From positions 1 through 39,410 of the IMG/VR virus record IMGVR_UViG_3300036785_001212: DNA of 39,410 nucleotides. One strand, 5' to 3'. The notes under the pieces are model-generated. The model saw only the letters and a list, made by a program, of their open reading frames with translations. It was not told the origin of the DNA and made no database searches. A program made the translations under genes and the position numbers. This document shows, piece after piece, positions 7,162 through 39,271 of this stretch. Source of the DNA: a virus. Position 1 is the stretch's first letter; the number at the start of each line of letters is the position of its first letter.

Positions 7162-8907
7162 TTATAGAGTCAGATACATGGTGGATTGGTTTCTATCGCT
7201 GGCCGAATACGTTGGGCTTCCAATAGGAACCAATCCGGTCACGCCGGAGCCGTCATCGAGATCGGCAGACAGCTCCGCGGATTTGTTATCGCCCTGACCA
7301 CCTAAGCTCAAGCGGAATCCCTTCACCTTGATGATCGTCTCGTGATACTTCTTGCCCGGGTATCCGGCGACCTCGAAGTGAGAACCGAGCGAAGCAAGGA
7401 TCATTCGCTTCTCGTTATTCACGAGCCGCTTCCAGAGCTTAAACTTCCTCGCGATCGGCACCCACATCTCCGGCGTCATCCGGCTGAGATTCGGACGGAT
7501 TTTCTCACGTGCCGCGCGAGCCGCTTGGAGCTCTAATTTGAGCTCTTTATCATTCCGGTCAAATCCTTCCGGGCTGATCTTCCCGCGGACAACTGCATCT
7601 TCGAGACGAGCCTGAGAACGCAAGAGCTCTTCGATCTCCTCATCGAGACGTTTGAGGCGCTCTAGCGTGTCCGCTTGCGAGTGCTCGGAGAGACCTTTAG
7701 CGAGCTCATCGATGAGCTTAGGATTCGCAAGACGCTGAACAACCTTATCGTCGATAATCTCCTCCAATTTCTCTCTGCGAATTCGCCTAGTCGGACAAGT
7801 ACCGCACTTTACTCTCCAAGTGCCCTTCGCGGTCCGCGCTCCGTGAGCACCTTGACAGACATAGTACTGAGCTTCATAGTGGTGCGCGCTCTTGTTCGTA
7901 TAGGCAACCGTGATCATCTTCCGGCCGCACTCGGCACACCTAAGCAAGCCTCGATAGACGAACGGATCATCACCTCTGTCTTCGCGAGTCTTCAAGCGCA
8001 TCTCCTCCCGTAACGCTAGCAACCGCTGAGCTTGAGCAAAGAGCGCCTCCGAGATCGGAGGATTGTCGAACATCTTAATCCGCTCACGCTCTTCAACAGG
8101 AATGATAATACGCCTCTGGTAGCGCAGAGAGCCGTCTTCACGAAGGACATTCATTTTCTTGCCCTTTGGACTTCCGGCCGTCTTCTTGGGAACGTGATAG
8201 CCGGTATAGATTTCGTTCTTGAGAATGTACGTCACCGCTTTATAGGGTATCCGTGTCTTGGTCGCGAGCTCTCCGAAGGAAATAAAGCCACCGCTCGTCA
8301 CGAAGGTCTCGAATAGCTCGATGACTTTCTCGATCTCTGCTCCCGGCCGGAGCTTGTCCGCTTTACCATCCTTGTAGAGCTCCAGACCGAAGGCGACAGA
8401 CTTTCGTCCGCTGGCCCACTCTCCGCTCCTCCGCTTGGAAAACTTTCCGCCCGTCATCCGAGCGCAGATAACGTCTCGCTCGTAGTCCGAGAACAGATAT
8501 TTAATCCCGGTGAGGAGCTTCGAAGAGCTCTCACCTTGGTCAAGCATCCCGTCCAGAAGATAGAGCTTGACCCTATGCTCTTTCAGTACGTCAAGCACTT
8601 CGGAATCGAGCTTGCGCATCAGTCTCGATTCCTCTTTCATCACGATCCCGCCGCAAGCTCCGCTCTCCACGATGCGGAGAATCTTTTGCATTTTCGGAGA
8701 GCTTCTCACCGCGGAGCCGCTCACGTCTTCGATCTGAAATTTCCACTGCGGCGGAATCACTAGGTTGTGTTGAAGCGCGATCCGCGCACAGGCTTCCTCC
8801 TGTGCCGGTATCCCATATTTCCCTTCGTCTGCCTGAGCTAAAGTCGAGACCCGGATCAACTGGATCACGGGTCGGCTTTTAAGCTCTGGCTTTCTCTTCG
8901 CTTTCAT
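7162..8907 (-). CDS. int: Large serine recombinase (phage integrase)
   Basis: 581 residues, the usual size for large serine integrases. The resolvase-type catalytic domain spans about residues 14-155 with the nucleophile Ser21 in LIRVSTLAQADEGKYGIPAQ and the Arg-rich active-site stretch KEESRLMRK near residues 91-99. A recombinase domain follows (about 168-300), then a zinc beta-ribbon with CAEC (324-327), C351 and CGTC (368-371). A coiled coil spans about 395-475 (charged, Leu-rich), as in phiC31/Bxb1-type enzymes, where it controls directionality. It acts on attP x attB with no cofactor; a separate directionality factor would be needed for excision. Its 5' end overlaps the small gene upstream by 29 bases. 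attP is expected close by but could not be identified without attB. Confidence 0.95.
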   Translation of the reverse strand: MKAKRKPELKSRPVIQLIRVSTLAQADEGKYGIPAQEEACARIALQHNLVIPPQWKFQIEDVSGSAVRSSPKMQKILRIVESGACGGIVMKEESRLMRKLDSEVLDVLKEHRVKLYLLDGMLDQGESSSKLLTGIKYLFSDYERDVICARMTGGKFSKRRSGEWASGRKSVAFGLELYKDGKADKLRPGAEIEKVIELFETFVTSGGFISFGELATKTRIPYKAVTYILKNEIYTGYHVPKKTAGSPKGKKMNVLREDGSLRYQRRIIIPVEERERIKMFDNPPISEALFAQAQRLLALREEMRLKTREDRGDDPFVYRGLLRCAECGRKMITVAYTNKSAHHYEAQYYVCQGAHGARTAKGTWRVKCGTCPTRRIRREKLEEIIDDKVVQRLANPKLIDELAKGLSEHSQADTLERLKRLDEEIEELLRSQARLEDAVVRGKISPEGFDRNDKELKLELQAARAAREKIRPNLSRMTPEMWVPIARKFKLWKRLVNNEKRMILASLGSHFEVAGYPGKKYHETIIKVKGFRLSLGGQGDNKSAELSADLDDGSGVTGLVPIGSPTYSASDRNQSTMYLTL

Positions 8908-10834: not shown

Positions 10835-11134
10835 ATGTTAAACCAAGCCGATCATGACGCGATCTGCCGCGCGCTTATCAATCAGGGAAAGCTGATCGAA
10901 GCCGGATTCGCCGCCCTGCGCTTCATCTCGATCCCGGCCGATGCTCCGGAGATCCAGATTGAGGAAATGCGCAACGCGTTTTTTGCCGGAGCCCAACACC
11001 TCTTCGCTACCATTAACTCGATCCTCGATCCGGGTATGGAGCCGACCGCGAATGATCTCAATCATATGAGTATGATCCAGACCGAGCTCGATGAATTCAT
11101 CCTGCGCTACAAGACGCGATGGGAACCGCAATGA
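10835..11134 (+). CDS. Conserved hypothetical phage protein
   Basis: 99 residues with a strong ribosome site (GGGGAGGAAACG). All-helical: residues 5-28 (DHDAICRALINQGKLIEAGF), 42-66 (EEMRNAFFAGAQHLFATINS) and 72-94 (TANDLNHMSMIQTELDEFIL). The AFFAGAQHLFA...ILDPGxEPT segment recurs, by memory, in proteins of soil phages. Function unknown. The stop overlaps the next ATG. Confidence 0.7.
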   Translation: MLNQADHDAICRALINQGKLIEAGFAALRFISIPADAPEIQIEEMRNAFFAGAQHLFATINSILDPGMEPTANDLNHMSMIQTELDEFILRYKTRWEPQ

Positions 11135-11430
11135 CCGACTTCAATCCTTATCTCGAACACTTCGAAAACGTGGTACTGCCGCAGATGGCAGAGACGTTCG
11201 TCGCCATGGTAATCCTGACCGACCGCATTGACTCCAAGCTTGCGCTCGAAGTCGGCGCGGCCATACTTCTGGACAAGCCCATCCTGATCGTCACCCGCCA
11301 TCGCAGTCTGGTCAACGCGCAGCTAGCCAAAGTCGCGGCCAAGATTGTGGTCATACCGATGGAGTCGTGGAAGGGACCGGGAGCCCGGGCTCTGATTCAA
11401 GCCGCAATCGAGGAGATGATCCCGCGATGA
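11131..11430 (+). CDS. Small protein with Rossmann-like, deoxyribosyltransferase/TIR-type fold
   Basis: I use ATG 11131, which overlaps the preceding stop (ATGA); an ATG four codons earlier is possible. 99 residues: strand FVAMVILTDRID, then KLALEVGAAILLDKPILIVT, then QLAKVAAKIVVIPME. The D-x3-K-x-A-x-E-x-G-A-A-I-x-L-x-K-P-I arrangement is the hallmark turn of the nucleoside 2-deoxyribosyltransferase / SMODS-SAVED / TIR superfamily (E then G-A then K-P). The protein is shorter than known enzymes and the N-terminal nucleotide motif is incomplete. It may be a binding domain that senses or sequesters a nucleotide-like ligand. Same shape is seen, by memory, in small actinophage proteins. Confidence 0.6.
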   Translation: MTDFNPYLEHFENVVLPQMAETFVAMVILTDRIDSKLALEVGAAILLDKPILIVTRHRSLVNAQLAKVAAKIVVIPMESWKGPGARALIQAAIEEMIPR

Positions 11431-30747: not shown

Positions 30748-31593
30748 TTAGCTGCGGAGGGTGAGCTCTAAGGCTTCGAGCTCCGCTTCAAAGATGGACA
30801 GCGGCACCTTGTCTTCAGCCGGTGACGCGCAATTACAGGCCGCGGCTTCGCAGGTCATCGATGGGCAACCGCTACAATCGCACCCGTCGCAATTACCATC
30901 CGAGCAGGACGCGCACGAACACGTACACGGCTGCTCTTCGCTCTGGAGAACAGCCGGAACCGACTTCAGCCGCTTCAGAGCCTTGAAACTCCGAGCCAGC
31001 GCCAGCGCGCTCTCGCTCTCTTCAGGCTCCGGCTCGGTGATACCCGTCGCCAGCCCGAGCTCCAGCGCTTCGCTCGCGCCCAGCCAGCTTTCGGCATCCA
31101 TAAGCTCTTTGGCTTTCTCCGCGGTCAGCCCGGCCCGCTGGACATAGGTCTCGGCAACCGAGCTCGATACTTTATCCAGTACGTCGCCCATCTTTCTCAT
31201 ATCTTGGGCATACCCAACGCAGGTTCCCCAAGCGTTATGAATCATCAGCATGGAGCCGGAGCCCATCACCCGGGTATCGCCCGCCATCGCGATAATCGAT
31301 GCGGCAGAAGCCGCGATTCCATCCACGAAGACCTCGACCGGCTTTCCCTGCGCGCGGATCACGTTGAAAATCGCGATCCCTTCGAAAGCATCGCCGCCCG
31401 GCGAGTTGATCCGCACCGCGATCTTATTGAATGGCCCGGCCGAATCGATTTCCTGCTTGACCGTCTTCGCGGTAATCCCGCCGCCCGTCCACCAGTCGAT
31501 ACCGATGTCTTCGTACACGAGGAGCTCTAACGTTCCATCCGGTTGTATAGCGGCCCGGAACTGCGGCTTTAATCTGGCTCGATGCTTGTTCAT
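30748..31593 (-). CDS. ClpP-like head maturation protease with Cys-rich tail
   Basis: 281 residues. Blocks typical of phage ClpP/S49-type prohead proteases: INSPGGDAFEGIAIFNVIRA (60s), DGIAASAASIIAMAGDTRVM with nucleophile Ser96, MLMIHNAWGTCVGYAQDMRK with His119, and MDAESWLGASEALELGLA with Asp166. Up to about residue 215 it is a normal head protease cutting the scaffold domain off capsid. After that come 33 residues (223-255) containing eleven Cys (CTCSCASCSDGNCDGCDCSG and on) before a helical end (LSIFEAELEALELTLRS). The insert is not part of the catalytic fold. It starts on the portal stop (ATGA). Confidence 0.9.
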   Translation of the reverse strand: MNKHRARLKPQFRAAIQPDGTLELLVYEDIGIDWWTGGGITAKTVKQEIDSAGPFNKIAVRINSPGGDAFEGIAIFNVIRAQGKPVEVFVDGIAASAASIIAMAGDTRVMGSGSMLMIHNAWGTCVGYAQDMRKMGDVLDKVSSSVAETYVQRAGLTAEKAKELMDAESWLGASEALELGLATGITEPEPEESESALALARSFKALKRLKSVPAVLQSEEQPCTCSCASCSDGNCDGCDCSGCPSMTCEAAACNCASPAEDKVPLSIFEAELEALELTLRS

Positions 31594-33215
31594 ATGAGCT
31601 CCTCGAAGAGCGCGTCATAGGCCCGGTCGGTAATCGAGACCGCAAGCGCGCTCGTATCTGGTTTTGTCCACGTCAACGACTCAGCAGCAAACTCTTTCCC
31701 GAGCCGGTTCGATTCCCGCTCCGCTTTGGCTTTCATTTCTTCGTCGGGAGTGAAGTACATCGTCATGATCGAGTCAGCCATCGACGCGATCGCGGGCTGA
31801 AGCGCGCGATAAGCAAAGAGCTCATCCGGCTTTTTTCGATTCGCGATCCGTCCAACCGCATCGCGAAAGAGCCGCCGGAACACGTTCGTGATCCGGTCCC
31901 GGCGATGATCGCTCACGATCTCCTGCTCTTGGTCATCCGTAACCGGCCCGCCTTGCGTGGGCTCGGTTCCGTCTTCCTTGTCCAACATACTTTCGAGCGG
32001 AACCATATTTAGCGGAGCAAGGCGAACATCTCCACCCTCATCGGCCGGGATCGGATTCTGGCGAAGACTGCGCAGGATATCGTTTGCCGAGTACACACCG
32101 CAATTGCGCAGAAGCGCGTAACCGGTCGTCTGGGAAGCGAAGTCACCGCGCTGGAAAGCATTGAAATCGTGCTCCGCGAAATAGGGTGGTGCCAATAGCT
32201 TGCGGTTGATCTCCTGCTCGATCCGTACTGCCCACATACGGAGACAGGTGCGCATATAGTCAAGCGATTGGTGCTCGATGTTGTTATTGGTCGCGCGCTG
32301 GAGCGACTGAAGCAGATGCATCGGCATCCGGAAGAGCGCGGCGACTTCCTCGCGCTGAAAGTTGCGCGTCTCCAAAAATTGCGCGTCATCGGGATTGATC
32401 GTGGTCTGTTCCCACTTCATTCCCTCTTCGAGCACCAGCGGCCGGAGCGCGTTTTCTCCGGTGATGATCTCGCGGATCGACTTCTTGAGATTCTCCAGCG
32501 CTTCGGTCCCGAGCGTACCGGGATGAGACAGGATGCCCGAAGCCTTGGCGCCATTGGCGAAGAGCCGCGCCCCGAATTTCTCCGCGGCCAGCCCGATCCC
32601 GAAAGCATTCTGACAGGTCCGGATCGGCGACATACCCACATAACCGTCATATGACAAGCCCGAAATATGAAGTATGTTCTCGGGATCGATGTAACTCGGC
32701 AACCCGTCCTGTGTCGCGGTCGTCGCGTACATCAGCGTCTTCTTGACCAGTCCATTCGATTGATTCAGCGGCAGCAGGACGGGACAAGTCTTTTCAGAGG
32801 GCAAAGGAATAAGCTCGGTCACGCGCGCGGCATTATCGCGCTTAATGAAGCTATAACTGTTCCCCCAACCGAGCACCGAAGCCAACATGGAGCCGCGGAA
32901 AACGATCGCGGTCATATTCTTATTCGAGGCTGAATTCAAGATCGGAAAGAGCCGGTGCTCGGTCGCTTCCCGCACCGAGTCATCGGACAGTTTTTGATAT
33001 ACCGGGAGCGGGAGCCCGCCAAGATCGGCCGCGATGTTCTGGATACAAGCGTAAGCGGTCGTCAGCCGCATCGCCTGTTTCTCGTTGACCATTTCCCCGG
33101 CATCAGAGCGGCCGATCCCGAGAGATTCCATCAGCGCGGAGGGTGGCAGCAAAGGCTGCGCTGGATCTTCCAGCGAGTAATTCTGGATGCCGATAGACCG
33201 CGCGAGTACGCCCAT
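31590..33215 (-). CDS. Portal protein (HK97 family)
   Basis: 541 residues. VNEKQAMRLTTAYACIQNIA then ADLGGLPLPVYQKL is the start of the Phage_portal family (many begin VxxxxAMxxxxVxACIxxIAxxIAxLPL). NMTAIVFRGSMLASVLGWGN, then SKLIPLP-like ELIPLPSEKTCPVLLPL, and EVAALFRMPMHLLQSLQRAT then NNNIEHQSLDYMRTCLRMW are the conserved centre and the wing/clip region. The C-terminal 100 residues are helical (barrel-like). It forms the twelve-subunit DNA entry ring. It overlaps the protease by ATGA and the small membrane protein before it. Confidence 0.93.
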   Translation of the reverse strand: MGVLARSIGIQNYSLEDPAQPLLPPSALMESLGIGRSDAGEMVNEKQAMRLTTAYACIQNIAADLGGLPLPVYQKLSDDSVREATEHRLFPILNSASNKNMTAIVFRGSMLASVLGWGNSYSFIKRDNAARVTELIPLPSEKTCPVLLPLNQSNGLVKKTLMYATTATQDGLPSYIDPENILHISGLSYDGYVGMSPIRTCQNAFGIGLAAEKFGARLFANGAKASGILSHPGTLGTEALENLKKSIREIITGENALRPLVLEEGMKWEQTTINPDDAQFLETRNFQREEVAALFRMPMHLLQSLQRATNNNIEHQSLDYMRTCLRMWAVRIEQEINRKLLAPPYFAEHDFNAFQRGDFASQTTGYALLRNCGVYSANDILRSLRQNPIPADEGGDVRLAPLNMVPLESMLDKEDGTEPTQGGPVTDDQEQEIVSDHRRDRITNVFRRLFRDAVGRIANRKKPDELFAYRALQPAIASMADSIMTMYFTPDEEMKAKAERESNRLGKEFAAESLTWTKPDTSALAVSITDRAYDALFEELI

Positions 33216-33397
33216 CAGAGTGTCCCTTCCCGCTTATTTGGTGCGCGCGCTTTTTGGTGCGCGATCGCGTAAACGGCCGCAAGACAGAAGAGCCCTAGAA
33301 CGATGGCCGCGGCCGCGCGACTCCACGCAGCTATCCCACCGACGATCAGAAGCACTCCCGAGACCAGCAACACGTCCTGAAGGTCAATGTGCCTCAT
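33215..33397 (-). CDS. Small membrane protein upstream of portal
   Basis: 60 residues, two hydrophobic helices (about 8-26, DVLLVSGVLLIVGGIAAWSR, and 27-46, AAAAIVLGLFCLAAVYAIAH) and a basic tail. A protein of this type with a DVLxVxGVxLxVGGxWxxxPAAAxIxxGxFCL pattern is commonly found before the portal gene of siphoviruses. It overlaps the portal start by one base and the glycosyltransferase end by 14. Role unknown; not necessarily lysis. Confidence 0.65.
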   Translation of the reverse strand: MRHIDLQDVLLVSGVLLIVGGIAAWSRAAAAIVLGLFCLAAVYAIAHQKARAPNKREGTL

Positions 33398-34238
33398 TTG
33401 TCTCCATCGGCTCGGGATCGATCTGCAAGATCATGTTGTAGTCGTTAATGCCTTCCTCGATCACCACGCCCGGCCGGAGCTTCAGGAGATTGCGCTTGAA
33501 GCCGGAGTAATCAACCTGATGCTGCCACCGGTCCCACTTCCACGTGATCGTGGTTACGTCCGGGTGTTGCTCGCGAAGGGATTCGGCCATCTTCAGACGG
33601 CCGTCATCCTTGTAGAGCTCCGCGGTATTCCCACCCTTCACGCTCATCGTCGGAAGCTTCCCGGCAAGGAAGGCAAAAAACAGGATTGTGCACCAGCCAT
33701 CCTTTAAGACCCGGAGTGACAGGTCTGTGTCTTCGTTGTAGCGGCCGCGCCAGCGGTACGGGATATCTGTTTTGATCAAAATACAGGAATAGATACGCCG
33801 GTTACGGAGGAAGGGCGGCATCTTTGTTTTCCGCGAAGCAAACATGTGGTAATGAAACCCGGCAATCGCAACGTTTTCGTAGCGGTCAACGAAATCCTCC
33901 GCGGCACGAAAGATCGAGCCGGTCGCCGAAGGCACTTTCAGATTGTGATGTAAGCGGTAAAAGCCTTCGATGTTATCGTCCAGAATCCAATACCGCGAAG
34001 CGAGCCGCGCGGCCGCGTGTTCCCAGACGAAATTGCGGGCCGGGATCGAGCCCTGCCCAAGATTACTGAACGGAAGCGTGATGATTCTCTGCCGATCAAT
34101 GACCGCTGCATACTGGTCACACTCCTGCGGCTCGATCACGATACTGTACGGCACTTTCATCCGTTCCAGTGCCTTCGCGGTGTGCCGCGATTCCCAACGA
34201 CCCTTGGAAATGATATACACCGGATAAAACGGAATCAT
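33384..34238 (-). CDS. TAGT-family glycosyltransferase, intact copy
   Basis: 284 residues from ATG 34238, which overlaps the methyltransferase stop (ATGA); an extension to 34307 would overlap that gene and is unlikely. Motifs: PVYIISKGRWESRHTAKALE (nucleotide-sugar N-terminal strand/helix), PYSIVIEPQECDQYAAVI, LPFSNLGQGSIPARNFVWEH, YWILDDNIEGFY with the DDN metal-binding motif (residues 87-89), RIYSCILIKTDIPYRWRGRY then NEDTDLSLRVLKDGWCTILF, and KGGNTAELYKDDGRLKMAES. These are by memory those of the TET/JBP-associated glycosyltransferase (TAGT) family of phages. Expected to add a sugar to a modified base or another hydroxyl. No hydroxylating partner is visible in the window. Confidence 0.85.
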   Translation of the reverse strand: MIPFYPVYIISKGRWESRHTAKALERMKVPYSIVIEPQECDQYAAVIDRQRIITLPFSNLGQGSIPARNFVWEHAAARLASRYWILDDNIEGFYRLHHNLKVPSATGSIFRAAEDFVDRYENVAIAGFHYHMFASRKTKMPPFLRNRRIYSCILIKTDIPYRWRGRYNEDTDLSLRVLKDGWCTILFFAFLAGKLPTMSVKGGNTAELYKDDGRLKMAESLREQHPDVTTITWKWDRWQHQVDYSGFKRNLLKLRPGVVIEEGINDYNMILQIDPEPMETNEAH

Positions 34239-35047
34239 TCCGGCTCGGAAAACAACGGCAGAGTGTAGCTTTCGTCCCGCATCCATAGCGCGGGCCGGTT
34301 GTTCCACGCTCCGGTTGGGATATGACGATACCCACTCAGCCGCAACGTCTTGTTGAACAGCTTCGAGGTCTCAGGACCGCTCAGCCCGTCTTCGTACGTG
34401 GGAAAATGACCAATCGCGGATTGATTGAACGTATTCGCGATCAGCAACGCGCGCGGCTGAGTCTGTTCCAAGAGATCGCGCAGATGATCGACCGGCCGCG
34501 GGAAGTGTTCAAAATACTCCGACGCGAAGAGTAGATCGACCGGGCTCGTGACGCGCTCTTCCATCTTGAACTTGAATTCTCCCCCAAGACGCATCGCAAT
34601 CCGTGCCTGATACGAATCGATCAGGTTGGTACCGATGACTTCGGCTCCCGGGAATACTTCCGTCAAAGCAGCCGTCGTAAGACCGACTCCACAGCCGAGA
34701 TCGGCGACCCGTCTTATATCTTCCAGCGATCCGGCAATACCCGCGGGCGGCAACGGCTTGACGTCACGAATCACCTTTAGATAGCGCCGCGAATAGACGG
34801 CCCAACATGCCCACGCTTCGGCGAAATAGATCGATTCGCCATAGACGCCGTAGTCAGGCCGGGCGCGCTCCAGCGAAGCGTACCAGCGGCGCTCTAATTC
34901 TCCCGAGAGCGCACCGTCGCCTTTATTCAAACTGGCTACACTCTTCAAAGCGACGTGCTCAATCGCCTCGATTTCTTCTATGCCCTCCGCGCTCACGAGA
35001 TCGAGGAACATATGAAACACGTCACGGCTCGGCGTATCCAGTATCAT
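34235..35047 (-). CDS. Class I SAM-dependent methyltransferase
   Basis: 270 residues, GGAGCCGGAAGCG upstream of ATG 35047. Motif I at residues 114-122 (VADLGCGVG followed by LTTAALTEVF and an acidic strand end GAEVIGTNL) binds SAM; a motif IV-like ASEYFEHFPRPVDHLRDLLE follows, then ALLIANTFN and HIPTGAWNNRP. The first 100 residues form a helical cap (HMFLDLVSAEGIEEIEAIEH). No N-6 adenine (DPPY) or C-5 cytosine (PC) signature is present, so a canonical restriction-type DNA methylase is unlikely. Substrate could be small, sugar-like or a modified base. It sits between the two glycosyltransferase copies and overlaps both. Confidence 0.8.
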   Translation of the reverse strand: MILDTPSRDVFHMFLDLVSAEGIEEIEAIEHVALKSVASLNKGDGALSGELERRWYASLERARPDYGVYGESIYFAEAWACWAVYSRRYLKVIRDVKPLPPAGIAGSLEDIRRVADLGCGVGLTTAALTEVFPGAEVIGTNLIDSYQARIAMRLGGEFKFKMEERVTSPVDLLFASEYFEHFPRPVDHLRDLLEQTQPRALLIANTFNQSAIGHFPTYEDGLSGPETSKLFNKTLRLSGYRHIPTGAWNNRPALWMRDESYTLPLFSEPE

Positions 35048-35885
35048 TCTCGATCGCTTCCGGCTCCGGATCGGTATGCAGAACCATGTTGTAGTTATTC
35101 ACACCCTCAGGAAGCACTATGCCCGGCCGCAGGATCGGCTTATTCTGCTTGAAGCCGGAGGTAATCAACCTGATGTTGCCATCGTCCCCACTTCCATGTG
35201 ATCGTTGCCACGTCCGGATGTTGTTCTCGAAGAGACTCAGCCATCTTCAGACGACCGTCACCCTGATAGAGCTCCGCGGTATTCCCGCCCCGGTTGGTCA
35301 CCGCTTCTTGGCAAGGAAAACGTTAAAGAGAACTGTGCACCAACCATCCTTGAGAGCCCGCAGAGACAGATCCGTGTCTTCGTTGTAGCGGCCGCGCCAG
35401 CGGTACGGGATATCATTCTTGATCAGGATGCACGAATAAATACGCCGGTTAAACCGGAAGGGTGGTGTCTTCGCTTTCCGCGGCGTCAGACTCTCGTACT
35501 GGAAGCCCGCGAGCGCAATGTTTTCGTAGCGGTCAACGAAATTCTCCGCGACCCGGAAGATGGTGCCGCTCCCGACCGGATACTTCGTGTTGCGGTTCAG
35601 CCAGATGAAACGGTCAATGTTATCGTCAAGAATCCAGTGCCGCGGGGCTCCGATCGAGACCGCGTGCTCCCATACCCAATTACGAGCCGGGATCGAGCCC
35701 TGACCGAGATTACTAAAGGGCAGACGGATGATCTGGACCGGATTCCCGGCCGCGGCATATTCGTCATACTCCTGCGGCTCGATTACTTCGCGGAACGGTA
35801 CACCGATCCGGGTCAGATAGCGGGCCGTCTGCCGGTTTCTCCATCTTCCCTTCGAGATCACGTAGACCGGATACCCGGGATTCAT
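35022..35885 (-). pseudogene. TAGT-family glycosyltransferase, second copy, broken by two indels
   Basis: From ATG 35885 (overlapping the upstream gene by ATGA) the frame gives MNPGYPVYVISKGRWRNRQT, then LPFSNLGQGSIPARNWVWEH, HWILDDNIDRFIWLN and RGRYNEDTDLSLRALKDGWC, but stops at TGA 35300-35298 after FLAKKR. A missing base near 35303 puts the next part (GGNTAELYQGDGRLKMAESL) in another frame, which then ends at a TAA. An extra base near 35160 (GGAGG where the intact copy has GGAG) restores the first frame, ending VLPEGVNNYNMVLHTDPEPE at TGA 35022. The two errors cancel and the whole length is 288 codons, as in the intact copy. True pseudogene or sequencing errors. Confidence 0.75.
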
Positions 35886-36322
35886 TCCATGATCTCTATA
35901 TCGTCGCTGATCTCTTCGGGCGGCGGGGCATCGATATACCGCTTGTTGAACGTTCGTCCAATCTCCGCTTCCGGATACCAAATCGAGCGCGTATTCATCG
36001 TCAGGCTCTGCCCCACGAGCGCGGCAAAGGCTTGATAGTCTTCCTTGGTCTCGAAGTGAACATAAATCGTTTTGACCGGAGCCAGGTCTTCCTGAACAAA
36101 CTCCGGCATTCCCTTCCAGTAGTTATCCCACCATTCGCCTTTCTCAAAGAGCGCGGGCTGTACCGGCAGCTTGGCAAGCTCTTCGGGAGAAAGCTCCACG
36201 GCCGCGGTCTGAACCTCACCCGGCTCCGCGGGCTGGCCGTTCGTCGGCTGGAGCTCCTCCGCGCGCGGCTCCGGCTCGTCAAGCGAATACGTACGCCTGA
36301 ATAGTGACAGTTGCGATGACAT
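35882..36322 (-). CDS. Conserved protein of the TAGT module
   Basis: 146 residues. N-terminal 45 are polar/disordered. Then ALFEKGEWWDNYWKGMPEFV, QEDLAPVKTIYVHFETKEDY, QAFAALVGQSLTMNTRSIWY and PEAEIGRTFNKRY. This WWxxxWxGMPEFVQEDLxPxxTIxVHF...RSxWFP pattern is, by memory, a small domain commonly adjacent to TAGT or ParB-like genes in phages and mobile elements. It has no recognised catalytic residues. It begins one base after the large terminase stop and overlaps the glycosyltransferase copy. Partner or specificity protein is a reasonable guess. Confidence 0.65.
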   Translation of the reverse strand: MSSQLSLFRRTYSLDEPEPRAEELQPTNGQPAEPGEVQTAAVELSPEELAKLPVQPALFEKGEWWDNYWKGMPEFVQEDLAPVKTIYVHFETKEDYQAFAALVGQSLTMNTRSIWYPEAEIGRTFNKRYIDAPPPEEISDDIEIME

Positions 36323-36323
36323 T

Positions 36324-38108
36324 TCAAATCACGACCAGCCCGCGGGACGCATAGACAGATACCTTCGTCTTGTTCACCATCGCGCGTGAGATCGCATTGA
36401 GAAGCGCAGATACCGGATCGATTTTGCTGATGCCGTTTTTCTCTTTCCGCGGGAAGATATTGTCATTGAAATCGGCGCGCGCGATGACGCAACTCATCGC
36501 CCACGAGAGAACCGGATCACCGTTGTGATGAAACCGCCGTCCCAAGACCGCGGCTTCCACTTCCTTCATAGCTTCGGAAAGATATTGCGTCGTCTGGGGG
36601 ATGGACACGATCGTATCCTCGCCCATCTTCGCGGCCAAGTCTTGCTGCATCTGGAGCGCGCTCCACGGATCGAACGCAATACACTTCCGATCAAATCCCG
36701 GGATTTCTTCCTCGATCTGTTTCTGGATCGACGCAAGTTGAATCTCCGGCCCGGGCATCGCTTCGAGCGATCCATCCTCCACCCATCGCGCGTAGTGTTC
36801 GTGCTCGCCATCCTGTACTCGATCGAGCGGTACATAGTGATGACCGAAAACATAGTAATGAAGAGCTCCACCTTCGAACCGCGGGAAGACCTTACAACGC
36901 GAAGCCAGATCAATCTTCGCGGCCAGATCGACGCCTTCGTAACAAACTTGCTTCGCGAAGCTCTCCAGCTTCAGAGCCGGGTCCGCGCAGGTATCCCACG
37001 CAGCCATATTCATCCAGCCCGATGCCGCATTAACCCAGAGATTCAGGTGTTTTGTCTTGAATACGTTTTGTTTGTGGTTTGACTGGATCGCGCCCACCTG
37101 TGCGTCGAGCAGGAAGCTCTCCGAGACGGATACGCCGAAGTTTGGGTTTGCTTTTTGGAGTGCGGATTTTGACTTCCAATCATCCCCCTTGTCAATCGTG
37201 AAAATGATCCCGAAGCGCCGCTCGTTTTCGATCCGGCCCTCAAGCATCATCTCCACTTCACGCTGCATGGTGTGACACGGACCTTCGATGCTCGATCCGG
37301 CCGTGGAGATTACGAACAGAAGCGCCTGAGACCGCGCGCCCATTCCCGTCTGCATCGTGTCGAGAAGCGAGCTCGTCGGGTGTTCGTGGTATTCATCGAT
37401 GATCGCGCAACTCGGCGAGCTTCCGTCACCGGGATCACCGACCATCGGCTGAAAGCGGCTCCCGTCACCCTCGATGTAGAGACTCTTGGCCGCGGCTTTT
37501 ACGCCGAAGACGTCATACAGGTCGGGCGTCTTGCGGGCCATCTGCCACGCGGACCGGAAAACCTCCATCGCCTGACGTTCCGTCGTGGCGCCAGAGTAAA
37601 TCTCCGCGGACTGCTCTTTGTCCATGCAGAGCATATAGAGACCGATTGCCGCGGCCAGCGTTGACTTACCATTCTTCCGTGGAACCAAGACCAATACTTC
37701 CCGAAAGCGGCGTTTCCCGCTCCGCTTCTCTACCCACCCGAAGATAGACGCGACAATGAAGACCTGCCACGACCCAAGACGAAAGCGGTCCGTGCGGCCG
37801 GTCCCGACCCGGGCCCACTCGCCGCGAACGTGGGGGAGCTCCTCAATGAAACGACAGGCTCGCCCGGCGAGCTTGCCGTCAAACCGGAAGGAGAAATCCT
37901 TCGTGCGCTGCCGTTCAAGGTCAGCGAGATGCCGCTGGCACGCCAGCTTGACCCATACGCAAGCCGGGATCAATCCCTCTGCGACCTCCCGGGCATACCG
38001 GTGCGCGACCTCCGCGTGACGAAGATCAGGCCCGATCCCGGCCGCGAATTTCCTGCGCGAGGCCGGCGAGGGCACTTCCGCGGGCGGAATTTGGATTGCT
38101 TCCTGCAT
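36324..38108 (-). CDS. terL: Large terminase subunit
   Basis: 594 residues. ATPase: Walker A-like VLVPRKNGKSTLAAAIGLYM (residues 141-160), Walker B CAIIDEYHE (234-242), coupling motif LLFVISTAGSS. Nuclease domain: VDLAAKIDLASRCKVFPRFE, which carries acidic metal ligands, plus later KCIAFDPWSALQMQ. The ordering and LVPRKNGKS motif are of the Terminase_1 (HK97-like) family. It docks on the portal and pumps DNA. Overlaps the small terminase gene by 83 bases (an internal start is possible, but ATG 38108 has AAGG three bases upstream). Confidence 0.93.
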   Translation of the reverse strand: MQEAIQIPPAEVPSPASRRKFAAGIGPDLRHAEVAHRYAREVAEGLIPACVWVKLACQRHLADLERQRTKDFSFRFDGKLAGRACRFIEELPHVRGEWARVGTGRTDRFRLGSWQVFIVASIFGWVEKRSGKRRFREVLVLVPRKNGKSTLAAAIGLYMLCMDKEQSAEIYSGATTERQAMEVFRSAWQMARKTPDLYDVFGVKAAAKSLYIEGDGSRFQPMVGDPGDGSSPSCAIIDEYHEHPTSSLLDTMQTGMGARSQALLFVISTAGSSIEGPCHTMQREVEMMLEGRIENERRFGIIFTIDKGDDWKSKSALQKANPNFGVSVSESFLLDAQVGAIQSNHKQNVFKTKHLNLWVNAASGWMNMAAWDTCADPALKLESFAKQVCYEGVDLAAKIDLASRCKVFPRFEGGALHYYVFGHHYVPLDRVQDGEHEHYARWVEDGSLEAMPGPEIQLASIQKQIEEEIPGFDRKCIAFDPWSALQMQQDLAAKMGEDTIVSIPQTTQYLSEAMKEVEAAVLGRRFHHNGDPVLSWAMSCVIARADFNDNIFPRKEKNGISKIDPVSALLNAISRAMVNKTKVSVYASRGLVVI

Positions 38109-38496
38109 TGACCTTCGGTCGGCTCACTTCCGTCAATCCGAGCGAGCTCCTGAGCTTGTCTTCCGTGTTCATCAGCCGCGACAACTCTTTGGATCCCGAC
38201 GCGATCCGCAACATATTCGCCTTCAGGATGCAAAGACTGATAACCGTCCCGCGCGATCCATAGCCGATGTACGGACCTTCGAGCGCGAGTTCCTGCCACT
38301 GACGAAGACAGCGCGCGGCGAACTGATAACCGAGCTCCGGCTCCGGAATTAAAAACTCCGGAGGCGGCGCACTATCAAAACACTTTCCCGTCTGCGGCTC
38401 GTTAGCGCGCGCCCGCTTGCGCGAAGGATTGTGCTGAAACGAGCCGTTCATTTCGAGCACGCGCGATGGCTTCGGCGGTCTTCCCTTCAACGGCAT
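38026..38496 (-). CDS. Small terminase subunit (P27 family type)
   Basis: 156 residues from ATG 38496; an in-frame ATG at 38541 overlaps the preceding gene. Begins MPLKGRPPKPSRVLEMNGSF then QHNPSRKRARANEPQTGKCF, the GRPPKPxxxLxxxGxxxxNPxRxxxREPxP start of P27-family small terminases. The middle is helical (QFAARCLRQWQELALEGPYI) and RIASGSKELSRLMNTEDKLR follows. These proteins recognise cos or pac on the DNA and load the large subunit. Order small then large terminase is standard. Confidence 0.8.
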   Translation of the reverse strand: MPLKGRPPKPSRVLEMNGSFQHNPSRKRARANEPQTGKCFDSAPPPEFLIPEPELGYQFAARCLRQWQELALEGPYIGYGSRGTVISLCILKANMLRIASGSKELSRLMNTEDKLRSSLGLTEVSRPKVNAGSNPNSARGSALAGLAQEIRGRDRA

Positions 38497-38500
38497 CGGA

Positions 38501-39271
38501 TTACCACATCCCAACAGGAATCGGCTCGTGGCTCCATCCAAGCTGAACCAGATCGAATACCACCAGCGATGAGCCCGGCTTGTAATTCTCGGTCTGTAAC
38601 TGAATTGATCTAACCTCTTCCCAATTCGTATTCTGCGCGGGCACGTTCTGCTTATCCGTGGGCACGCTGAACGGGTTGTCGTCGAGGTCGATACTGGTCA
38701 CCGAGAATCGAGGGTCGTCCGGGTTGGGATCGTACCAGAAGCGGAAATCCGCGGTGTGATGCCGGTCCGGAGCGATCTCCTCAACTACATAGCCGGAATC
38801 GATCCACGCGGGCGGATCATTATCAATCTGCCACTGCTTCCGGTCCCGATTCCACTGCGTACTGAAATTGCCCACGTTGCGGATTTTCGTCTGCGAATTC
38901 GGCCGGGTCCGGAAACAGACTTTCAGATCGAGCTCCAGCCGCGCGATCTGGTCATGAACATGTTTCGACCAACTGAAACCGATCTTCATAGCGACGTACT
39001 GAAAGAGATTGCCCTGCGCGTCCCGCGGCGGCAATTTCTTATGGCTGACCAACCCACCCGGAAAGTCTTTCGTGCCACCGTACCCATTAGTCACGACCAG
39101 CGAGCCGTCCGCGCCGGGCATCGAGCCAAAGTAATCGGAGGGCGGGTCATTGATATCCGGCGAAGTATTCCCGTGCCAGTTCGCCGCGTCTCGTTGTATC
39201 TGCGGATCGAGCAAAATCAACCCGGACACGTTCGCCTTCCAGCGTTTGGATTCCTCAAGCAGATTCGGCAT
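38501..39271 (-). CDS. Unknown protein at the head of the late block
   Basis: 256 residues, GGAGTGGAGTT before ATG 39271. It is beta-rich with repeated polar/aromatic strands (HVHDQIARLELDLKVCFRTR, RHHTADFRFWYDPNPDDPRF, NWEEVRSIQLQTENYKPGSS). Many Trp/Asp/Asn/Pro residues give it the look of a beta-sandwich or lectin-like domain. No signal peptide or membrane segment. I do not recognise the family. It is transcribed with the terminase genes; a packaging, head-decoration or cargo role cannot be separated by sequence. Confidence 0.6.
   Translation of the reverse strand: MPNLLEESKRWKANVSGLILLDPQIQRDAANWHGNTSPDINDPPSDYFGSMPGADGSLVVTNGYGGTKDFPGGLVSHKKLPPRDAQGNLFQYVAMKIGFSWSKHVHDQIARLELDLKVCFRTRPNSQTKIRNVGNFSTQWNRDRKQWQIDNDPPAWIDSGYVVEEIAPDRHHTADFRFWYDPNPDDPRFSVTSIDLDDNPFSVPTDKQNVPAQNTNWEEVRSIQLQTENYKPGSSLVVFDLVQLGWSHEPIPVGMW

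Follow-up and report, generated by a model that had tools for sequence, protein, structure and literature searches.

TAGT-family glycosyltransferases are known from phages that hydroxylate their bases first, and systems joining a TET/JBP oxygenase, a TAGT and a DNA methylase have reportedly been described by Iyer and colleagues. Here we analyze a TAGT module in the IMG/VR virus record IMGVR_UViG_3300036785_001212 (positions 1 to 39,410, i.e., the entire stretch examined, hereafter the window), a linear 39.4 kb sequence whose terminase, portal, tail, O-like replication, and serine-integrase genes mark it as coming from a temperate siphophage. Modules of this type comprise two to four genes and point to a large TAGT subfamily with an uncharacterized partner domain (GMPEF), exchangeable putative sugar-tailoring enzymes, and, in most cases, no known acceptor-making enzyme. 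Judged by sequence, this is a TAGT system, but neither a TET/JBP-TAGT nor a T-even system, because the acceptor-making enzymes of both were sought and not found.

Comparison with the closest described systems illustrates these differences. Nonlabens phage P12024L, which carries TET, TAGT, and DNA methyltransferase genes in a row, has the TAGT family in common with the window but lacks a GMPEF domain, whereas neither an oxygenase nor a DNA methylase was found in the window, the methyltransferase of which is of a small-molecule type. The beta-glucosyl-HMC-alpha-glucosyltransferase of T2 and T6, i.e., the T-even TAGT, belongs to PF20691 like the window TAGTs and is a DNA-acting phage glycosyltransferase; the T6 enzyme, a characterized PF20691 member, is reported to have a GT-A fold and to add glucose to glucosylated 5-hydroxymethylcytosine (5hmC) in DNA (PMC13216743, text as searched). 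T-even phages prepare this acceptor with a dCMP hydroxymethylase and an alpha-glucosyltransferase (alpha-GT), neither of which was found in the window (the alpha-GT search lacking a matching control), and the window differs further by its GMPEF partner and O-methyltransferase-like gene. ParB-DNA methyltransferase genes of temperate phages, such as Psychrobacter phage pOW20-A, share with many GMPEF partners the same ParB N-terminus and a site beside terminase genes, but in these partners the GMPEF domain and TAGT stand in place of the methyltransferase domain, and the window GMPEF protein has no ParB domain in Pfam searches while many of its relatives carry one. Finally, the window represents a case of the solitary phage TAGTs, which occur without alpha- or beta-glucosyltransferase (beta-GT) in 288 of 753 genomes and were pointed out in 2026 as possible new transferases (PMC13216743, text as searched); the searched text of that article mentions no partner domain, ParB, methyltransferases, or tailoring slot. 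Nothing relevant was returned by literature searches for TAGT together with ParB, or for a methylated sugar in connection with phage DNA, which does not prove that the module is undescribed; its priority is uncertain.

The original prediction, made from this DNA alone, had placed four open reading frames (ORFs) between the terminase and portal genes, and their positions and surroundings hold, with all four on the minus strand:

31590-33215, portal gene, flanking the block
33384..34238, minus strand, TAGT2, intact TAGT-family glycosyltransferase (PF20691, 152.3 bits, Pfam cut-off 27.5)
34235..35047, minus strand, class I S-adenosylmethionine (SAM) methyltransferase (MTase), 270 aa (Methyltransf_11, 22.0 bits, Pfam cut-off 21.2)
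35022..35297, minus strand, TAGT1 3′ remnant, homologous to the C-terminal region of the intact enzyme but severed by a stop
35298..35885, minus strand, TAGT1 5′ part, truncated TAGT-family glycosyltransferase (PF20691, 136.8 bits, same cut-off)
35882..36322, minus strand, GMPEF-domain protein, 146 aa, predicted TAGT partner (almost always fused to TAGT or next to it in relatives)
36324-38108, large terminase (TerL) gene, flanking the block

A small membrane protein gene and the portal gene follow the block. Of the ATGA-like junctions initially proposed throughout, those joining the stop of the small protein to the ATG of TAGT1 (35882-35885) and the stop of the MTase to the ATG of TAGT2 (34235-34238) are present, but the TAGT1/MTase junction is not intact, the MTase start falling within the 3′ end of a broken TAGT1. 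Neither TAGT, MTase, nor the small protein matched a known defense family in PADLOC.

Components of the module and their association

The small protein at the front of the block includes a conserved domain of ~65 aa, WxxxWxGMPEFVQED...F...TxxTRSIWYP (W-x-GMPEF-x-Q-x-D ... TKSIW-x-P across relatives), and its N-terminus is probably disordered. It belongs to no Pfam family and weakly matches phrog_22103, a PHROG of unknown function. A scan with a TAGT alignment retrieved 38 loci from GTDB genomes and at least 577 from IMG/VR (80 kept), across which the GMPEF domain was fused N-terminally to TAGT in 17 of 123 TAGT loci and located ≤150 bp from it in another 99 (116/123 altogether). Conversely, in the 74 loci found via the GMPEF domain alone, TAGT was adjacent or fused in 59 and one gene away in 15, and the same fusion exists in the cultured phages PTm1 and Kuja. 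A ParB-like N-terminus, as also seen in ParB-DNA methyltransferases (PADLOC MTase_II), was carried by the split GMPEF partner in 27 loci, with 55.6% identity between the ParB N-terminus of a GMPEF partner and the ParB portion of the DNA methyltransferase from pOW20-A, and two loci (L031 and L100) encode ParB_N, GMPEF, and TAGT as a single protein, the ParB match being below the Pfam cut-off. The structural model of the GMPEF domain (pLDDT 82.6, pTM 0.51) has two helices and no regular sheet, and yielded no PDB match at E ≤ 10; the domain may need TAGT for folding. Separately, a conserved ~280-aa family is found directly upstream of GMPEF-TAGT fusions (L053:4478-5314, L054:1253-2083, L061:8514-9344, L062:8498-9424), with no Pfam match for the one member checked, in L053.

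The MTase consists of a helical N-terminus and a Rossmann SAM domain. Its AlphaFold2 model (pLDDT 94.3) is closest to COMT-like small-molecule O-methyltransferases (Z 13-14, root-mean-square deviation 3.3-4.2, about 200 residues), and the DALI-style comparison listed class I enzymes only, consistent with the Pfam match and with the class I assignment made at the outset; no DNA methyltransferase was listed, although such an activity may still exist, and the sequence includes no DNA-methyltransferase catalytic motif (DPPY, PCQ). Single-sequence searches with this protein returned no relatives, three were then noticed beside TAGTs already collected, and a scan with a four-sequence alignment yielded at least 255 IMG/VR loci (80 kept). 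TAGT was present in the fetched DNA of 72 of these 80 loci, and, after removing redundancy, in 43 of 49, including 34 at ≤100 bp and 3 as fusions; random placement would put ~2 of 40 within 100 bp of TAGT, compared to 31 observed. TAGT and MTase are fused in a single ORF in four loci (L165, L166, L169, L184). Since independent collections of loci, made with each gene, again show the MTase-TAGT and small protein-TAGT pairings, the reading of this block as a module is strongly supported. A one-off insertion of the MTase had also been considered, and was rejected given the 255 relatives from the alignment-based scan, nearly all beside TAGT.

This MTase-TAGT pairing is one-sided, as only three loci of the TAGT scan (L080, L102, L120) hold the MTase. 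The MTase can also be found without this TAGT subfamily, either with ParB and a divergent PF20691 protein (L168/L171, tested in L168) or with TET_JBP and two divergent PF20691-like ORFs (L223/L224, tested in L223); in L223:925-6666, TET_JBP, both divergent ORFs, and the MTase form a single cluster devoid of a GMPEF domain. No cultured relative of the MTase was detected among 50,697 phage records.

Where exactly one gene lies between the GMPEF gene and TAGT, its product is a member of the MTase family, an FkbM methyltransferase (L257, L289, L302), a Glycos_transf_1 enzyme (L304), or an unassigned protein (L244, L275), while in the window the MTase sits between two TAGTs. NAD-epimerases, UDP-glucose dehydrogenase, and radical SAM/SPASM proteins adjoin TAGT in other members. 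Such sugar-making or sugar-modifying neighbors are compatible with a glycan-building role, and the FkbM, Glycos_transf_1, epimerase, and UDP-glucose dehydrogenase genes are the reason we propose a sugar-tailoring function for this slot.

As originally described, both TAGTs of the window are paralogs within PF20691, but the upstream copy is frame-broken, which had been missed. The premature stop of TAGT1 is a TGA at 35298-35300, where comparison to the intact L003 and L005 orthologs reveals a 7-nt deletion, followed ~140 nt further by a 1-nt insertion (an extra C) near 35160. Jointly, these indels bring the frame back, but a stop intervenes, and the remainder is out of frame between the indels and extends to a stop near 35022. 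The truncated product lacks the subfamily-invariant C-terminal positions (GGN, HPD, W/R/H), and TAGT1 is probably inactive in the present record. Because the ratio of non-synonymous to synonymous substitution rates of the out-of-frame part is strongly purifying compared to relatives (0.01-0.02), the break would be either a very recent event or an assembly error, and an old pseudogene was ruled out by the same values. The window TAGT1 forms one clade with those of L003 and L005 (100/100 support), so that these three phages likely inherited the pair of TAGTs from a common ancestor; only one TAGT is present in L004, L013, and L014. TAGT2 has an intact frame with all subfamily-conserved positions (DDN, GRYNEDTD, GGN, HPD, RxxH), and its long GTG start is probably wrong, the ATG at 34238 being in agreement with relatives. 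Elsewhere, two TAGTs carry a C-terminal uracil-DNA-glycosylase (UDG)-superfamily domain (L072:9286-11022 and L080:9653-11293; E 0.009 and 1e-4, below cut-off), which would be an unusual joining of a sugar transferase to a base-excision fold.

Searches for acceptor-making enzymes

No match was obtained in the window for TET/JBP (PF12851, or a profile of three phage TETs), the thymidylate synthase (TS) family, including the dCMP hydroxymethylase type (PF00303), or C5-cytosine DNA methylases (PF00145), in line with the lack of an oxygenase or TS-like hydroxymethylase already reported for this DNA. Alpha-GT (PF11440) and beta-GT (PF09198) were also without match, a weaker absence since no control genome matched either. 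For most other window ORFs, Pfam scans yielded no above-cut-off match to an oxygenase, a radical SAM protein, or an enzyme modifying nucleotides. A sub-threshold match to nucleoside 2-deoxyribosyltransferase was seen at 11119-11427 on the plus strand (17.0, cut-off 28.8).

Scans of multiple records, including virus contigs of 100-334 kb, indicate that lacking an oxygenase is normal in this TAGT subfamily and no peculiarity of the window. TET_JBP was found in none of 50 records (a run in which no control matched, but the same model scores P12024L and L008) and in 2 of 42 MTase records, one of them below cut-off, TS-family enzymes in 0 of 28 and 0 of 42 records, and C5-methylases in 2 of 36. By these low counts, the subfamily is mostly devoid of enzymes making hydroxymethyl bases. 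A C5-methylase or TS-type enzyme as general companion of the subfamily was thus ruled out, none being seen as such in these records. Individual loci do associate with such enzymes, with TET_JBP located beside TAGT in L008, L020, and L057 and beside the MTase in L223, and TS-family genes present in PTm1, henriette 12B8, and Kuja.

Three further genes of the window are:

429-761, HNH endonuclease, left end of the window
7162-8907, serine integrase
38026-38541, small-terminase-like ORF, right end of the window

The order wraps from the HNH gene to the small terminase as in L013, in which HNH precedes the small terminase gene; this suggests a circularly permuted and near-complete genome, of which little is likely missing.

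Target of the module and alternative explanations

Phage DNA is, in our assessment, the probable target of this module. The main evidence is the existence of GMPEF-ParB and TAGT-UDG-like fusions, further supported by the similarity of ParB-type partners to those of ParB-DNA methyltransferases and by occasional TET or C5-methyltransferase neighbors. The DNA glycosylation first suggested for this block gains from the same observations, although the DNA target itself is still one that we infer. In the proposed mechanism, the GMPEF-domain protein and TAGT2 would act as a single unit, with the GMPEF domain probably placing the glycosyltransferase on DNA, and TAGT2, presumed to be of GT-A type from its family, would use a nucleotide sugar as donor and attach its sugar to a site on phage DNA at a late stage of infection, near the time of packaging. 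The MTase would O-methylate the transferred sugar as a cap, and the product would protect phage DNA against restriction and other DNA-sensing defenses. If DNA is the target, we have good confidence that the MTase methylates the sugar, while the complete scenario, i.e., glycosylation of phage DNA by the GMPEF protein and TAGT2 with O-methylation of the sugar by the MTase, is favored by a narrower balance of probability.

In this mechanism, the acceptor would not come from any known phage hydroxymethylating enzyme, either here or in most relatives. It may be provided by a hidden enzyme (a radical SAM protein, an unusual 2-oxoglutarate (2OG) oxygenase, or a host source), or a standard base may be glycosylated directly. 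The module is present in phages infecting very different hosts and is accompanied by no fixed acceptor-making gene, which would favor an acceptor available everywhere. A more specific version, which we consider conceivable but doubtful, is that GMPEF-TAGT glycosylates DNA without prior hydroxylation, e.g., at an exocyclic amine or elsewhere on a standard base, or at a hydroxyl made by an unrecognized enzyme class, with GMPEF/ParB targeting replacing the DNA methyltransferase. The sugar would afterwards receive an O-methyl group or other tailoring from the enzymes exchanged within the slot.

Several observations weigh against DNA glycosylation followed by sugar methylation. The closest siblings (L003, L004, L005, L013, L014) have the core without the MTase, so that methylation would be optional by gene content, and no hydroxyl-bearing base is accounted for in the window, leaving the classical TAGT reaction without a known acceptor. 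The DNA-positioning role of the GMPEF domain is a guess given the lack of PDB match and the modest model confidence, and some of the ParB and UDG assignments fall below Pfam cut-offs. Finally, nucleoside diphosphate (NDP)-sugar enzymes and FkbM methyltransferases are also found in surface-polysaccharide clusters.

Alternatively, the MTase could act on a base or another molecule instead of the sugar, as the class I fold alone leaves its substrate unfixed and the family also occurs in L168/L171 and L223/L224 with ParB, TET, or divergent TAGT partners. This appears unlikely, however, since a PF20691 protein is near the MTase even in loci of this type, TAGT-MTase fusions recur (L165, L166, L169, L184), DPPY and PCQ motifs are absent, and FkbM methyltransferases can take the place of the MTase in the same slot. 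Another possibility is ordinary TET- or hydroxymethylase-type chemistry with a hidden acceptor, in which unrecorded phage sequence or the host supplies 5hmC or 5-hydroxymethyluracil for glycosylation by TAGT2. The linear record is of unproven completeness, radical SAM proteins or 2OG-oxygenase-like ORFs are found near some members, and the TET_JBP and TS-family associations listed above, including one TET_JBP-associated TAGT of the same subfamily with a GMPEF partner, would fit this scenario. We nevertheless regard it as quite unlikely, given the near-absence of TET and TS enzymes even with records of 100-334 kb included, and the wrap-around gene order of the window.

The module could also act outside of DNA. 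TAGT and MTase might alter host lipopolysaccharide or capsule, blocking superinfection or aiding lysogeny, which would suit a temperate phage encoding a serine integrase, and the epimerase, UDP-glucose dehydrogenase, FkbM, and Glycos_transf_1 neighbors fit NDP-sugar clusters of the type reported from jumbo phages (PMC7824862). This is decidedly unlikely in our view, as we noticed no gene of the flippase, polyprenyl-sugar, or membrane glycan type within the module, the characterized PF20691 enzyme works on DNA, and the ParB and UDG-like fusions, small-terminase neighbors, and location between terminase and portal all argue otherwise. A head-operon block decorating capsid or tail proteins would be consistent with this same location, upstream of a small membrane protein and the portal gene, but is highly improbable because in most relatives the module lies elsewhere, either beside ParB and the small terminase or with the replication and recombination genes of T4-like phages, and because the domain fusions indicate DNA.

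If DNA is indeed the target, then either the acceptor chemistry or the enzyme that makes the acceptor must be new, and phage DNA sugars may vary through cassette exchange, like surface glycans do, which would bear on type IV restriction and other modification-sensing defenses. Direct glycosylation without hydroxylation, if true, would amount to a new way of glycosylating DNA, in which the sugar caps vary.

Other genes near TAGT in related loci

Radical SAM/SPASM genes are found beside TAGT, often together with the MTase, in L198:6198-7154, L199:6850-7806, L200:8124-9080, L208:2040-3005, L215:3041-3997, L218:1349-2308, and L220:3287-4243, as well as L029:10834-11814, and are candidates for an unrecognized acceptor-making enzyme. 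Amidoligase_2, class II glutamine amidotransferase-like, and gamma-glutamyl-cyclotransferase-like genes are located directly downstream of TAGT in L009:9793-12357, L010:11117-13674, and L143:1370-4041. In L006:697-4924, genes assigned by eye as QueD-like and QueE-like (7-deazaguanine pathway) lie upstream of the GMPEF-TAGT pair, and the QueE-like ORF (549 aa, also assigned by eye) apparently contains an intein. Another apparent intein start is seen in a terminase-like ORF at L219:9864-12077 (sequence KAQPLDAAVWTPDGPRPM...).

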